From Cytophagales bacterium CG12_big_fil_rev_8_21_14_0_65_40_12 (GTDB lineage Bacteria > Bacteroidota > Bacteroidia > Cytophagales > Cyclobacteriaceae), in NCBI GenBank assembly GCA_002786855.1, contig PCUU01000056.1:519-64518 (forward strand): a stretch of DNA of 64,000 bases, in the 5' to 3' direction. The translations under genes were made by a program, and so were the position numbers. Each line of letters begins with the position of its first letter. Position 1 is the first letter of the stretch. The notes below the pieces were generated by a model. That model worked only from the letters and a program-made list of their open reading frames with translations. It made no database searches and was not told the DNA's origin. Of this stretch, positions 49,956 through 55,050 are shown in pieces.

Positions 49956-51821
49956 ATGGCGAATGAAGTATCGAACTACACCGAAGACAGTATTCGGTCA
50001 CTAGATTGGAAGGAACATATCAGATTAAGACCCGGAATGTACATTGGGAAATTGGGCGATGGGTCGGCCCAAGATGACGGTATCTATGTTTTAGTAAAAG
50101 AAGTTATAGACAACAGTATCGATGAACACATGATGGGTTTTGGTAAGACCATCGATGTGAAAGTGTCGGAACTGAAAGTCGAAGTAAGAGACTATGGTCG
50201 CGGCATCCCTTTGGGGAAAGTTGTAGACTGCGTTTCGAAGATCAACACAGGAGGTAAATACGATAGCGGTGCTTTCCAAAAGTCTGTAGGACTAAATGGG
50301 GTAGGTACAAAGGCAGTAAACGCCTTATCTTCCTTTTTCAGGGTGCAATCTTACAGGGATGGGAAAACGAAGTTGGCGGAATTTGCCCGTGGCGAAATCA
50401 CCAATGACGAGCAGGAAACCACTACCAGTGGAAGAAACGGTACGCTCATCACCTTCAGACCTGACGATACGATTTTCAAAAATTACCATTTCATACCTGA
50501 ATACCTTGACGACTTAATTTGGAATTACTGTTTCTTGAATGCTGGATTAACCATCAATTTTAATGGGACTCGCTATCATTCCGAAAAGGGACTTCATGAC
50601 CTGCTGTCAAGAAAAACTACAGAAGATAGTCTGCGCTATCCTATCATACATCTGAAAGGCGAGGACATTGAAATTGCCATGTCGCACACCAATCAATATG
50701 GCGAAGACTACTATTCTTTTGTCAATGGTCAGTATACAACCCAAGGTGGAACACACCAAGCTGCTTTTAGAGAGGCTTTAGTGAAAACGATTCGGGAATT
50801 CTATAATAAGAATTTTGAGGCTTCGGATGTTCGAGGGTCAATAGTAGGCGCCATAGCCGTTCGCGTGCAGGAACCAGTCTTCGAATCGCAGACTAAAACG
50901 AAATTAGGTTCTCAAAACGTAGGCCCAGATGGCCCGACCATGAGAACCTTTGTCAATGATTTCGTAAAGAAGGCATTGGATGATTTTCTTCACAAGAATC
51001 CAGATACTGCGAATTCGCTACTCAAGCGAATTTTACAATCGGAGCGGGAGCGAAAGGAAATTGCTGGCATTAAAAAACTGGCCAATGAGAGGGCCAAAAA
51101 GGCGAACCTTCACAATAAGAAACTGAGGGATTGCAGAATTCACCTCGATGATAAAAAGGGAGACGAAGACTTAAGAAATGCCTCTACGCTGTTCATCACA
51201 GAAGGGGACTCTGCTAGTGGTTCAATCACCAAATCAAGAAACGTTCAAACTCAGGCTGTTTTTAGTTTGAGAGGAAAACCACTCAACTGTTATGGCTATT
51301 CTAAAAAAGTGGTTTACGAGAATGAGGAATTCAATCTGCTTCAACATGCCCTCAATATTGAAGATGGCTTAGAAGGATTGCGATACGATAAAATCGTTAT
51401 CGCTACCGATGCCGATGTTGATGGCATGCATATTCGACTTTTGCTGCTTACCTACTTTCTTCAGTTTTTTCCAGACTTGGTAAGAAGAGGTCATGTGTAT
51501 ATTTTGGAAACGCCACTTTTTAGGGTAAGAAATAAGAAAGAAACGATCTATTGCTATAGTGAAGAAGAAAAACAGCGTGCAGTGGAGAAATTGGGCAGCA
51601 AGCCAGAAATCACACGTTTCAAAGGATTAGGGGAAATTTCGCCTGATGAGTTCAAAGGTTTTATCAATGAAGACATGCGTTTAGAACCCATCATTTTGAA
51701 AAAAGACACTAGCATTGAAGAACTATTGAAATTCTATATGGGCAAGAATACTCCCGATCGCCAAATCTTCATCATTGACCGCCTAAAAGTAGAAAAGGAC
51801 CTTATAACCACTGAAATTTAA
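49956..51821 (+). CDS. parE: DNA topoisomerase IV subunit B
   Basis: 621 residues. The GHKL ATPase domain has [15 protein letters not shown] (catalytic Glu, Mg-binding Asn), DYGRGIPLG and [15 protein letters not shown]; the Toprim domain has [11 protein letters not shown] and [16 protein letters not shown]. Length and the lack of a GyrB insert fit ParE-type topoisomerase IV, which separates daughter chromosomes. The stop lies 2 bases before the left end of a 477-bp insertion that separates it from parC. Confidence 0.95.
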
Positions 51822-51823
51822 TT

Positions 51824-52300
51824 GTCTGGAGCAGAATTAAAGAATGTTTTAATGCCAGAATGGAAAAGGATGAATTAACATATGCAATAATAGGCTGTGC
51901 TATGAAAGTGCACAATACAATGGGGCCAGGCTTTCAGGAGGTAATCTATCAACGATGCTTAGCGATAGAATTAGCAAGGGCAAATTTAAATTACCAAAGA
52001 GAACAATCTCAAACCGTGTATTATGACAGCATTGAAGTTGGAAAGCGAAGGGCTGATTTTATTGTTGAAGATAAAGTAGTGGTGGAACTGAAAGCAGTGG
52101 TTAAATTAGAAGACGCTCATTTAGCCCAAGCCAAAAACTACACGGTTGCCTATGATTTTCCAAAGGGTTTATTAATCAACTTTGGAAGCAAAAGTATGGA
52201 ATACAAATTAATGTTTAACCCAAAATACCAAGATCAGAAATGAAAGTTGGGCAATTAGTAATCCTGAAAATTCTAGGATTCTAATAATTCTGATACAGAC
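51824..52300. mobile_element. Small GxxExxY element with inverted ends
   Basis: The ends are inverted repeats of the form GTCTGnAnCAGAATTA (51824-51839 and, reversed, 52285-52300; 14 of 16 match). Inside is one gene for a GxxExxY protein, and near the right end a hairpin AATCCT (52260-52265) / AGGATT (52275-52280). The element sits exactly between the parE stop (2 bases before) and the parC start (5 bases after). No transposase is encoded and no clear target duplication is seen. Confidence 0.65.
51860..52243 (+). CDS. GxxExxY protein (PDDEXK_3 nuclease-like)
   Basis: 127 residues of the GxxExxY family (PF13366). The signature is GPGFQEVIY (22-30); a PD-(D/E)XK core is visible with D66 in RRADFIVED and E76-L-K78 in VVVELKAV. 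Nuclease activity is expected by fold but has not, to my knowledge, been settled for the family. It lies inside an element with inverted ends in the parE-parC junction and has nothing to do with topoisomerase function. Catalytic residues are intact, so the gene is under selection or recently acquired. Confidence 0.88.
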   Translation: MEKDELTYAIIGCAMKVHNTMGPGFQEVIYQRCLAIELARANLNYQREQSQTVYYDSIEVGKRRADFIVEDKVVVELKAVVKLEDAHLAQAKNYTVAYDFPKGLLINFGSKSMEYKLMFNPKYQDQK

Positions 52301-52305
52301 GATTT

Positions 52306-55050
52306 ATGAGTGAAAATTTAAGTAACGGAGAAGATAGAGAACTACAAGAAGTAAGGCCTGTAGCGGGCATGTACGAAGATTGGTTCCTGGATTATGCGTC
52401 TTATGTAATTTTAGAAAGGGCGGTGCCAGCCATACAGGACGGATTTAAACCTGTGCAACGCAGGATTCTCCATGCCATGAAAGAAATGGACGATGGCCGC
52501 TTTAACAAAGTAGCGAACGTCATAGGCCAAACCATGCAGTATCACCCACATGGAGATGCCTCAATAGGAGATGCCATTGTCAATATCGGCCAAAAGGATT
52601 TGCTAATTGAAACCCAAGGGAACTGGGGCGATATTCGTACGGGTGATAGTGCGGCAGCCGCTCGATATATTGAAGCTCGGCTTTCCAAGTTCGCTTTAGA
52701 AGTTGTTTTTAATCCTCAGACCACTGATTGGCAATTGTCTTATGATGGACGAAAGAAGGAACCCGTTACCCTGCCTGTAAAATTTCCTTTGCTTTTGGCC
52801 CAGGGAGTAGAGGGGATTGCCGTTGGTTTATCTACTAAAATATTGCCTCACAATTTCATTGAGCTTATTCAAGGATCGATAAAAATCCTTCAAGGCAAAA
52901 AAGTAAAAGTGTACCCTGACTTCCCGACAGGGGGAATGGCAGATTTTGAAGAATATAACGAAGGTTTGCGTGGAGGAAGAATTAAGGTAAGGGCTAAAAT
53001 CGAAGAGGAGGACAAAAAGAGCCTTATCATCAAAGACATCCCTTTTGGAACTACGACTACCACTGTCATAGATTCAATCATTAAGGCGAATGACAAGGGC
53101 AAAATAAAAATCAAAAAGGTGGTGGATAACACTGCCGAGCATGTCGAAATCTACATCGAATTGGCACCAGGCCAATCGCCCAATATTACCATTGATGCCC
53201 TTTATGCTTTCACAGATTGCGAAGTAAGTATTTCGCCAAACGCCTGTGTGATTATAGACGACAAGCCTCACTTCATCACCGTCAACGAAATCCTCAGGAT
53301 TTGTACGGACCAAACGGTGGTATTGCTGAGAAGAGAGTTAGAGATTAGAAAAGCCGAATTACTCGAAAAACTACTCTTCTCTTCGCTAGAAAAGATTTTC
53401 ATCGAAAACAGGATTTACCGTGATATCGAAGAATGTGAAACTTGGGAAGCCGTAATTGAAACCATCGATCGTGGTTTGGATCCCTTCAAACCTCAGTTTT
53501 ACAGAGAAATCACACATGACGATATTCTCCGTTTGACCGAAATTAAAATCAAGCGAATTTCTAAGTTCGACACTTTTAAGGCCGATGAACTTATGCGCAA
53601 GCTGGAAGAAGAGCTTGCAGAGGTAGAGCATCATTTGGCCAATTTGGTAGAGTATGCCATAGCATATTACCAAAAGCTTTTGGATAAATATGGCAAAGGC
53701 CGTGAGCGCAAAACCGAAATAAAGTCTTTCGAAAACATTACCGCTACGGTGGTAGCAGCCAATAACGCAAAGCTCTATGTCAATCGTGCCGAAGGTTTCA
53801 TTGGTTATGGCATGAAAAAAGATGAGTTCGTTTGTGACTGTTCTGATATAGATGATGTAATTGTTTTCAGGCGAGATGGCGTTTTTCAGGTCGTTCGGAT
53901 TTCTGAGAAAATTTTTGTGGGCAAAGACATCATTCATGTAGGCGTTTTCAACAAGAATGATGAACGAATGGTCTATAATATGATTTACCTCGATGGAAAA
54001 TCAGGCCGAAGTATGGTCAAGCGTTTCCAAGTTTTGGGCGTAACCCGCGACAAAGAGTACGATTTGACCAAAGGAGAACGAGGCTCTAAAGTGCTTTACT
54101 TTACCGCCAATCCAAATGGCGAAGCCGAGTTGGTCACCATTTTCCTTACCTCAGGAGCCAAAGCCAGGGTAAAGGTCTTTGATTTTGACTTTTCCGACAT
54201 TGAAATCAAAGGAAGAAGTGCCGGAGGAAACATTGCTACCCGTTATCCTGTCAGGAAGATTCAGCTCAAAATGGAGGGGAAATCTACTTTGGGGGGTGTT
54301 AATATTTGGTATGACGATGCTGTTGGCCGACTTAATCGCGATGATAGAGGAAGGCTTTTAGGCAACTTTCAAAGTGAAGACAAGATACTGGTCATCTTCG
54401 ATTCTGGCGAATATGAAATCACCAGTTTTGAACTGACCAACCGATATGAAACCGACAAAATTCATTTGATTGAGAAGTTCAATCCTAATGCGGTCATTTC
54501 AGTCATACATTTCGATCCAGAGGCACAATTGCATTTGGTGAAGAGATTCCAAATTGAAACAAGTACCCTGGATAAGAAATTTGTTTTCATCAGCGAGCAA
54601 AAAGGAGCCAAATTAGTTTTGGCCACTACGGTGCCACAACCTCAGGTAGAGGTCACCTACATGATCAAAGGGGTGAAAGAGCGAAAAACCATGTCGGTAG
54701 ATTTAGACATGCTCATTGACATAAAGGGCTGGAAGGCAATGGGGAATAAGCTTACACCACATGCCGTGAAAAAGGTTACCCTTTTGAATGGTAGCAGTGA
54801 TAAGAAAGCAGAGGCTGATGCAATGGAAGACATTCAGGAAGCAACCATAGCCGCTGAAGAAACCAGTAGTGAAGAAGCGATCCAAGCAGTTGAAATAGAA
54901 GAGGTTGAGCCTGAAAGGTCAATTCCAGTAGCGCCACCTGAACCTGTAGCCCAGCCAAAGCCAGTTGCACCACCAAAAACTGAACCGCCAACCAATGGGA
55001 AGGACAAAGAAGGTGGCTATAATATTGGAGATACCATCGAGCTGTTTTAA
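52306..55050 (+). CDS. parC: DNA topoisomerase IV subunit A
   Basis: 914 residues. The winged-helix region has PVQRRILHAMKEMDDGR and YHPHGDASIGDAIVNIGQ; the catalytic tyrosine is Y121 in AAAARYIEARLSK. The tower and coiled coil (about 350-480) are followed by a beta-pinwheel C-terminal domain (500-800). A low-complexity acidic then Pro-rich tail (about residues 830-895, PVAPPEPVAQPKPVAPPK) precedes a short conserved end GYNIGDTIELF. It cuts and rejoins DNA with ParE. The original operon with parE is now interrupted by the GxxExxY element. Confidence 0.95.
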   Translation: MSENLSNGEDRELQEVRPVAGMYEDWFLDYASYVILERAVPAIQDGFKPVQRRILHAMKEMDDGRFNKVANVIGQTMQYHPHGDASIGDAIVNIGQKDLLIETQGNWGDIRTGDSAAAARYIEARLSKFALEVVFNPQTTDWQLSYDGRKKEPVTLPVKFPLLLAQGVEGIAVGLSTKILPHNFIELIQGSIKILQGKKVKVYPDFPTGGMADFEEYNEGLRGGRIKVRAKIEEEDKKSLIIKDIPFGTTTTTVIDSIIKANDKGKIKIKKVVDNTAEHVEIYIELAPGQSPNITIDALYAFTDCEVSISPNACVIIDDKPHFITVNEILRICTDQTVVLLRRELEIRKAELLEKLLFSSLEKIFIENRIYRDIEECETWEAVIETIDRGLDPFKPQFYREITHDDILRLTEIKIKRISKFDTFKADELMRKLEEELAEVEHHLANLVEYAIAYYQKLLDKYGKGRERKTEIKSFENITATVVAANNAKLYVNRAEGFIGYGMKKDEFVCDCSDIDDVIVFRRDGVFQVVRISEKIFVGKDIIHVGVFNKNDERMVYNMIYLDGKSGRSMVKRFQVLGVTRDKEYDLTKGERGSKVLYFTANPNGEAELVTIFLTSGAKARVKVFDFDFSDIEIKGRSAGGNIATRYPVRKIQLKMEGKSTLGGVNIWYDDAVGRLNRDDRGRLLGNFQSEDKILVIFDSGEYEITSFELTNRYETDKIHLIEKFNPNAVISVIHFDPEAQLHLVKRFQIETSTLDKKFVFISEQKGAKLVLATTVPQPQVEVTYMIKGVKERKTMSVDLDMLIDIKGWKAMGNKLTPHAVKKVTLLNGSSDKKAEADAMEDIQEATIAAEETSSEEAIQAVEIEEVEPERSIPVAPPEPVAQPKPVAPPKTEPPTNGKDKEGGYNIGDTIELF

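Follow-up and report, generated by a model that had tools for sequence, protein, structure and literature searches.

The window analysed here, a stretch of 64,000 nucleotides, carries between parE and parC a small nuclease gene bracketed by inverted repeats, which raises the question of whether this is an ordinary gene of the operon or a mobile element and, in the latter case, what moves it. Comparison with other copies supports movement over evolutionary time, and the feature is most likely a mobile palindromic element whose nuclease would help its movement or persistence.

Structure of the cassette in the parE-parC gap

The cassette, read directly from the window sequence, measures 477 bp and occupies positions 51824-52300 in the parE-parC gap, where the preliminary description had placed an element with inverted ends; these coordinates hold. 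The features of the region are as follows.

49956-51821, + strand, parE (left flank), a 621-aa ORF with its stop codon TAA at 51819-51821
51820-51839, + strand, left inverted repeat from the repeat finder, outermost 20 nt, including AATT outside GTCTG
51824-51865, + strand, left inverted array, GTCTGGAGCAGAAT and then worn units ending with CAGAAT
51860-52243, + strand, GxxExxY gene, 127 aa, predicted minimal Cas4/RecB-like PD-(D/E)XK nuclease
52257-52300, - strand, right inverted array, on this strand GTCTGTATCAGAAT TATTAGAAT CCTAGAAT TTTCAGGAT, read outward-in
52285-52304, - strand, right inverted repeat from the repeat finder, outermost 20 nt
52306-55050, + strand, parC (right flank), a 914-aa ORF with its start codon ATG at 52306

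The cassette starts with GTCTGGAGCAGAATTA (GTCTG at 51824) and ends with TAATTCTGATACAGAC (CAGAC finishing at 52300), lying 2 bases behind the parE stop and 5 bases ahead of the parC ATG and leaving both genes whole, just as first described. According to the repeat finder, the 20-nt pair 51820-51839/52285-52304 is 85% complementary, and the end-to-end alignment, limited to the bases between the flanking genes and the ORF, scored 12.9, a value reached by 2 of 2000 dinucleotide shuffles. Each end is an array of approximately 42-44 nt composed of units spaced 8-9 nt. The left array is more worn than the right one and extends into the GxxExxY start codon, the first bases of which are held by the last unit, CAGAAT. 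It shows 2 mismatches to the class-A end defined below, and both GTCTGAATCAGRAT-type ends together show 3, which places the element (row L001) in class A. Outside the right end, CAGAC is followed by GA, in contrast to the AA often found in other class-A copies. The hairpin AATCCT/AGGATT, previously listed beside the ends, is present at 52260-52280, but it corresponds to two adjacent units of the right array and not to a separate part.

The GxxExxY gene was the sole ORF of at least 60 aa between the ends, where no DDE transposase is encoded, and Rfam returned no match in 51000-53000. The exact word GTCTGNANCAGAATT occurred at two sites of the 4.06-Mb genome, which are both ends of this element. 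With one mismatch allowed, 8 further sites were found, compared to 2 for the reversed control pattern; best local alignment gave no GTCTG-type inverted partner within 650 bp at 6 of the 8 one-mismatch sites fetched, and no gene-less unit was seen in the window genome among those inspected.

The GxxExxY protein

The predicted protein matched TIGR04256 with 133 bits (curated cut-off 35) and PF13366 (PDDEXK_3) with 128 bits (curated cut-off 22), and its ORF was the one TIGR04256 match in the window genome. In the Pfam and NCBIfam searches, the 127-aa ORF exhibited only the PD-(D/E)XK/GxxExxY family, with no transposase family and no second domain. Residues G24, E27, Y30, D66, E76, K78, Q90, and Y94 were invariant in an alignment of 50 sequences, composed of the window protein and 49 of 80 named relatives, in agreement with the earlier statement that D66, E76, and K78 are intact. 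Five of these residues (D66, E76, K78, Q90, and Y94) follow the order D-ExK-QxxxY, which is the RecB family motif. The AlphaFold model (pLDDT 90.3, pTM 0.84) found its best solved structure match in SSO0001 (4ic1), which we take to be a Cas4, with a Foldseek E-value of 1.8e-4; the superposition gave Z 9.0 and an rmsd of 4.6 over 103 residues, this being the only chain with Z of at least 8, and RecB-like and restriction nucleases were placed below it in the structure match scores. Additionally, the PADLOC defence library gave a weak match to Cas4b (E 8.8e-5, residues 51-96). A sequence search of solved structures yielded two matches at E 0.38 and 1, which are not meaningful, and PHROGs yielded matches only to families without assigned function (E 0.002 to 0.05).

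The dN/dS values ranged from 0.026 to 0.089 in six GxxExxY pairs, indicating strong purifying selection; of the 13 pairs tried, 6 had no defined dS and another (L082/L086) was saturated, while 3 of the 6 pairs used have a dS above 1 by one or both of two methods. The six comprise the G006/G014 junction pair (L011/L013), L112/L115, L089/L091, and L087/L118, the members of the last three sharing their left flank or site, as well as L158/L159 and L117/L118. Such low values argue that the nuclease is kept functional, and the strong selection could possibly reflect a host function.

GxxExxY matches were present in 152 of the 296 sampled phylum genomes, with up to 12 per genome. Carriage by plasmids or phages was considered and rejected: 5 distant records were found among 72,556 plasmids, no phage record among 50,697 matched, and none of 50 pattern stretches from viral contigs was confirmed. 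The literature searched with the word GxxExxY and with PF13366 offered no function for the family, none of the four end sequences tried was found in it, and no description of such a cassette turnover mechanism was encountered. One passage of PMC8934634 concerns a gene called cas4 by another tool and GxxExxY by the authors' own pipeline. A passage of PMC12085832 refers to an algal virus genome annotated with a GxxExxY protein.

Two classes of protein and two types of end unit

Copies were gathered from relatives of the window protein, a phylum sample, and 80 named genome contigs. From the 185 copies found, 16 were dropped for short flanks or a low score, and the remaining 169 form a non-random set, consisting of the best 80 of 581 relatives of the window protein and, for most of the remainder, the best family-search hits; some sites are represented more than once, by copies from neighbouring species (16 multi-copy clusters). 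A profile trained on the window's relatives was used to score the proteins, class A being set above 125 and class B at or below 110; L128 falls between these cut-offs and was counted in neither class.

Inverted ends exceeded the 99th percentile of mononucleotide shuffles in 110 of the 169 copies, leaving 59 without such ends. The median end-pair score was 16.7, compared to 9.9 for ends paired across different copies; ends of different copies have units in common, and only 60 of the 169 copies exceeded 20.5, the 95th percentile of ends paired from different copies. Two unit types were recognised, A (GTCTGAATCAGGAT...) and B (CACAGAG/CGCAAAG), which are near-exclusive to the two protein classes. 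A units stood on both sides in 24/105 class-A and 1/63 class-B copies, and B units in 21/63 class-B and 0/105 class-A copies. For example, GTCTGAATCAGRAT with at most 3 mismatches was found at each end in 47 of the 105 class-A copies and, after mononucleotide shuffling, in none of the 105. The self-match of class-A arms (n = 76) peaked at a 9-nt lag (0.436 vs 0.302 by composition) and that of class-B arms (n = 71) at a 10-nt lag (0.359 vs 0.298). The bases outside class-A ends were often TT on the left, before GTCTG, and AA on the right, after CAGAC. No target duplication was visible by eye in 47 class-A flank pairs or in the filled/empty set, the sites being diverged; nor did the comparisons yield another footprint of integration or a copy in the act of moving.

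Because each unit type matches its protein class almost exclusively, the comparison suggests that protein and ends evolve together. Left and right ends of one copy were also more similar to each other than to the right end of the nearest relative (A, p = 0.003; B, p = 0.0001), a result to which we give no weight since close relatives have flanks in common in their left regions. Going by record title, 8 phylum groups were represented in the class-A rows of the tree, including 5 cyanobacteria and 2 Pseudomonadota, and these class-A proteins were 63-81% identical to the window protein. Cultured Crocosphaera, Anabaena, and Dolichospermum strains carry copies at 63-69% identity; the Symploca copy (81%) is possibly contamination, as its contig comes from a metagenome bin.

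Turnover at the parE-parC junction

The C-terminal part of parE was matched in 59/59 genomes, the window's own included; the very weak match in G041 is probably a paralogue. In the 50 of these genomes in which the stretch behind parE was read, the parC start motif followed in 38 and was absent in 12. The comparison of empty and filled junctions called for at the outset could be made within the genus, where the 19 genomes comprised 7 empty junctions (G001, G002, G003, G005, G008, G013, and G017, with 1-15 nt between the genes), 5 with class A (G000, G006, G014, G015, and G007), 5 with class B or what is left of it (an intact copy in G011 and G012, a broken one in G004, a decayed one in G009 and G016), one lone A end (G010), and one ambiguous remnant (G018).

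State labels (A, B, remnant, empty) were set by eye from the junction sequences; G009 and G016 were scored B from their remains, and G018 was left out of the state counts. On the parE+parC tree, in which 8 of the 18 inner branches are open and the base composition of G009 is unlike that of the others, the labels were as scattered as shuffled ones, requiring 10 changes against a shuffled mean of 10.7 (as low in 74/200). Three sister pairs with support of 98-100 (G006/G004, G015/G012, and G007/G009) combine A with B. Between G006 and G004, identity is 95% for parE (58 of its last 60 bases) and 94.5% for parC, yet the two bear different elements, and their flanks are 96-98% identical right to the junction. 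The flank identity of the other two pairs is similar near the junction and farther off (0.78-0.88), these pairs being too diverged for the detection of donor tracts.

The five class-A junction proteins formed one group in the best tree, without support (26/75), and the two intact class-B junction copies paired with an SH-aLRT of 90. Given this unsupported class-A group, a single old class-A insertion followed by several losses and replacements is possible; repeated insertion at the junction is possible as well. An ancestral tandem insert of A and B with differential loss would also give the pattern of the sister pairs; among the 19 genus genomes, none carried both at the junction. Vertical inheritance in all relatives, which had been named as the outcome that would speak against mobility, does not describe the junction as a whole, but the window copy itself looks vertically inherited within its closest clade (G000, G006, and G014), and it is probably an old resident of the junction rather than a fresh insertion. 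This one junction holds 9 of the 25 TIGR04256 matches of the genus (8 copies), making random insertion over thousands of junctions unlikely.

Other small genes were observed behind parE in other genera (L045:536-1597; L036:406-1441; L054:525-1175). The genes seen in the parE-parC stretch there encode a YhcG/DUF1016 PD-(D/E)XK nuclease (PF06250, PF17761), a SatD-family protein, with a 108-aa ORF beside it that matched nothing in Pfam, and a four-helix sensory-module protein (PF12729). On the whole, the junction seems permissive.

A second filled and empty site, and the choice of insertion sites

A clean filled/empty case was found in another genus at the L115 site, where, among 8 genomes, a class-B copy is present in 4 (G112, G157, and G084, with 452-453 nt between the flanks, and G219, with 545 nt), decayed in 1 (G096, 363 nt), and absent in 3 (G231, G127, and G123, 28-29 nt). 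In the filled genomes, the upstream stop abuts the left end, and the downstream gene starts with other codons than in the empty genomes; as read, this insertion would have involved no duplication and a small loss of target bases. Three further sites were tried as empty-site tests and set aside: of 10 genomes, G006 alone has the flanks of L119, the intergenic flank at L305 has diverged too far, and the site of L087 is rearranged in relatives.

Counting one copy per left-flank cluster, 58 of the 137 clusters were in sense to two co-directional neighbours, 5 were antisense, and 74 were mixed or undecided. At 42 of the 72 sites measured, the left end lay between -30 and +15 nt from the upstream stop codon. 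Some copies have an arm whose translation extends the upstream protein by a C-terminal tail, for instance that of hsdS (type I restriction specificity), a gene located upstream of class-A copies in 2/9 by Pfam and in 12/133 tails by a loose motif. Upstream genes of the hsdS type were noted at L172, L217, L161, L186, L208, L160, L196, and others. Sense orientation near stops may reflect selection and not targeting, since only intergenic, co-directional insertions may be tolerated or expressed. Genes within operons are mostly co-directional, and selection for expression would yield the same bias, so that the orientation need not point to a mechanism. At L082, the left end is preceded by about 30 nt similar to the beginning of the downstream gene, as though a gene start had stayed behind or been duplicated.

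Units without a gene

The longer A pattern GTCTGAATCAGRATTTNCAGRAT gave 66 hits in 16 of the 296 phylum genomes, the reversed control gave 0, and the window's own genome had no hit. Among the 30 pattern loci fetched, 12 showed gene-less inverted pairs, in 4 the ends enclosed a gene, and 14 had lone ends. The gene-less pairs correspond to 7 distinct units of 89-244 bp, one of which adjoins a GxxExxY gene. A GxxExxY match was present in 13 of the 16 genomes with A ends, compared to 139 of the 280 others (p = 0.019).

Beside one GxxExxY gene (L118; G006:C47:76612-77264), five gene-less units of 120 nt, related to those above, are arranged in tandem, pointing to local amplification; any match to this unit was present in 3 of 19 genomes searched. 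At another place, covered by L323 and L332 (G334:C1), three repeats of the left arm, with a period of 52 nt, precede the right-hand ends.

Mechanism and alternative explanations

With moderate confidence, we regard the feature as a copy of a widespread chromosomal mobile element in which inverted arrays of ~9-nt units surround a gene for a minimal Cas4/RecB-like nuclease, the arrays being matched to the nuclease class. The comparison of genomes supports an inserted unit with class-matched arrays and a conserved nuclease, its presence, absence, decay, and class replacement at fixed places, gene-less relatives, and spread across phyla. Acting on DNA, the nuclease would recognise or process arrays of its own class, possibly in single-stranded or fold-back form or where the DNA is broken; host repair would then join the element into a break or gap. 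Such joining would fit the observations, in which insertion left no visible target duplication and altered a few target bases. The GxxExxY gene would be read from the transcript of the host operon, as its sense orientation suggests. A more specific version is tentative and falls short of an even chance: the Cas4/RecB-like nuclease alone would recognise class-matched arrays and move its own cassette as well as gene-less copies in trans, with A and B competing for junctions.

Passive mobility, in which the ends are a substrate of host recombination or of a transposase located elsewhere and the nuclease is cargo, is unlikely while retaining some credit. The ORF holds no transposase family, gene-less pairs exist, and a GxxExxY match is absent from 3 of the 16 genomes with A ends. 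Cargo would hardly be expected to show the near-exclusive match of unit type and protein class, which suggests joint evolution, or the strong purifying selection on the nuclease.

Action at the RNA level, comparable to that of the intervening sequences (IVS) of 23S rRNA, is less probable again. The ends would pair in the transcript and RNase III would remove the insert, hence the harmless insertion; PMC4990558 reports that the Coxiella IVS is excised by RNase III. The layout of inverted ends around one small gene is IVS-like, the copies lie in sense orientation inside operons, and the IVS genes of the window's order (L249-L278) carry inverted arrays too. The arrays of the latter consist of other short units, e.g., GAGTATTGAGTA, and 11 of 26 IVS loci exceeded the 95th percentile of mismatched end pairs. 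GTCTG-type ends had been expected around GxxExxY and IVS genes alike; they do recur around GxxExxY genes in other organisms, but none of the 26 IVS loci had them on both sides (one had them on the left only and one on the right only, based on match coordinates and after dropping 4 of 30 loci below 3300 bases). If the arms paired in the transcript, changes that keep G-U pairs should exceed those that break pairing. Pooled over 114 copies, pairing was kept in 196 differences and broken in 169 (p = 0.17; share 0.48-0.59), which is not significant, and the lean per copy was borderline, 53 copies favouring G-U pairs against 34 (sign test, p = 0.053). Moreover, the 59 copies without an end pair over the threshold nonetheless have a well-scoring gene. 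We favour a role of the arms at the DNA level, as far as arm comparisons can tell, with a possible RNA part.

A homing endonuclease that cuts the empty or rival-occupied junction, its gene being copied in by repair from a filled chromosome, is slightly more doubtful still. In its favour, two classes have repeatedly occupied a single junction within one genus, and the junction shows presence, decay, and absence, the states through which homing cycles pass. Homing alone explains neither the new sites, copies of both classes being spread over 137 left-flank clusters, nor the class-matched inverted ends. The 127-aa protein has no second domain, and no tract from a distant donor lies beside the swap in the close pair G006/G004, the other two pairs being too diverged for this comparison. 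Finally, an ordinary small host operon gene, e.g., a nuclease for repair or defence, the nearby repeats being due to chance or structure, would suit the low dN/dS, the weak Cas4 profile match in a defence library, and hsdS among the upstream genes, but is very improbable in view of the empty and filled junctions, the A/B replacement, the end classes, and the gene-less units.

Should GxxExxY be the gene of an array-ended mobile element, the family would gain a role and a common repeat type would be explained. Mobility that involves a Cas4-like nuclease, with no transposase known, would also become open to testing, and the finding might bear on the origin of the Cas4-type nucleases of CRISPR adaptation.

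Comparison with known systems

By their defining features, the element is none of the REPtrons/TIRtrons, Cas4, or IVS. The likeness of the window protein to Cas4/RecB concerns the fold (4ic1), the Cas4b profile, and the D-ExK-QxxxY residue order. In Cas4, four cysteines bind iron-sulphur, whereas the window protein, with 127 aa, has two cysteines (C13 and C33), and its gene has parE and parC as immediate neighbours and no adjacent cas1. Mobile PD-(D/E)XK nuclease genes are also found among homing endonucleases of the I-Ssp6803I type; these are intron-borne and lack inverted arrays, in contrast to the present element. The Rickettsia palindromic elements are mobile, measure ~100-150 bp, and are tolerated in frame in coding sequence, and some arms here are likewise translated as C-terminal tails, the two being set beside each other by description only. 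To our knowledge, no nuclease gene accompanies the Rickettsia elements.

As far as the relevant parts of PMC3733652 describe them, the REP/RAYT and TIR/TIRYT systems consist of a small gene flanked by palindromic or inverted repeats that also occur without the gene, and RAYTs and TIRYTs are HUH tyrosine transposases; in the text of PMC3733652, no word starts with GTCTG. Both those systems and the present one combine one small gene with repeat ends and have a repeat family that also occurs gene-less. The present element differs in bearing a PD-(D/E)XK nuclease in place of an HUH enzyme, together with arrays of 9- to 10-nt units.

The IVS of 23S rRNA, according to a part of PMC4990558, is a small selfish insert around one small gene. 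The present element is likewise a small insert with one small gene, and the IVS genes of the window's relatives are also accompanied by inverted arrays. The protein family and the units differ, and the sign of RNA pairing is not significant here. The window genome has 8 IVS (TIGR02436) matches; in the window element only TIGR04256 was found, and not the four-helix S23 protein (TIGR02436) of the 23S IVS. Thus, REPtrons and TIRtrons are closest in layout, Cas4/RecB in protein, and the IVS in style.
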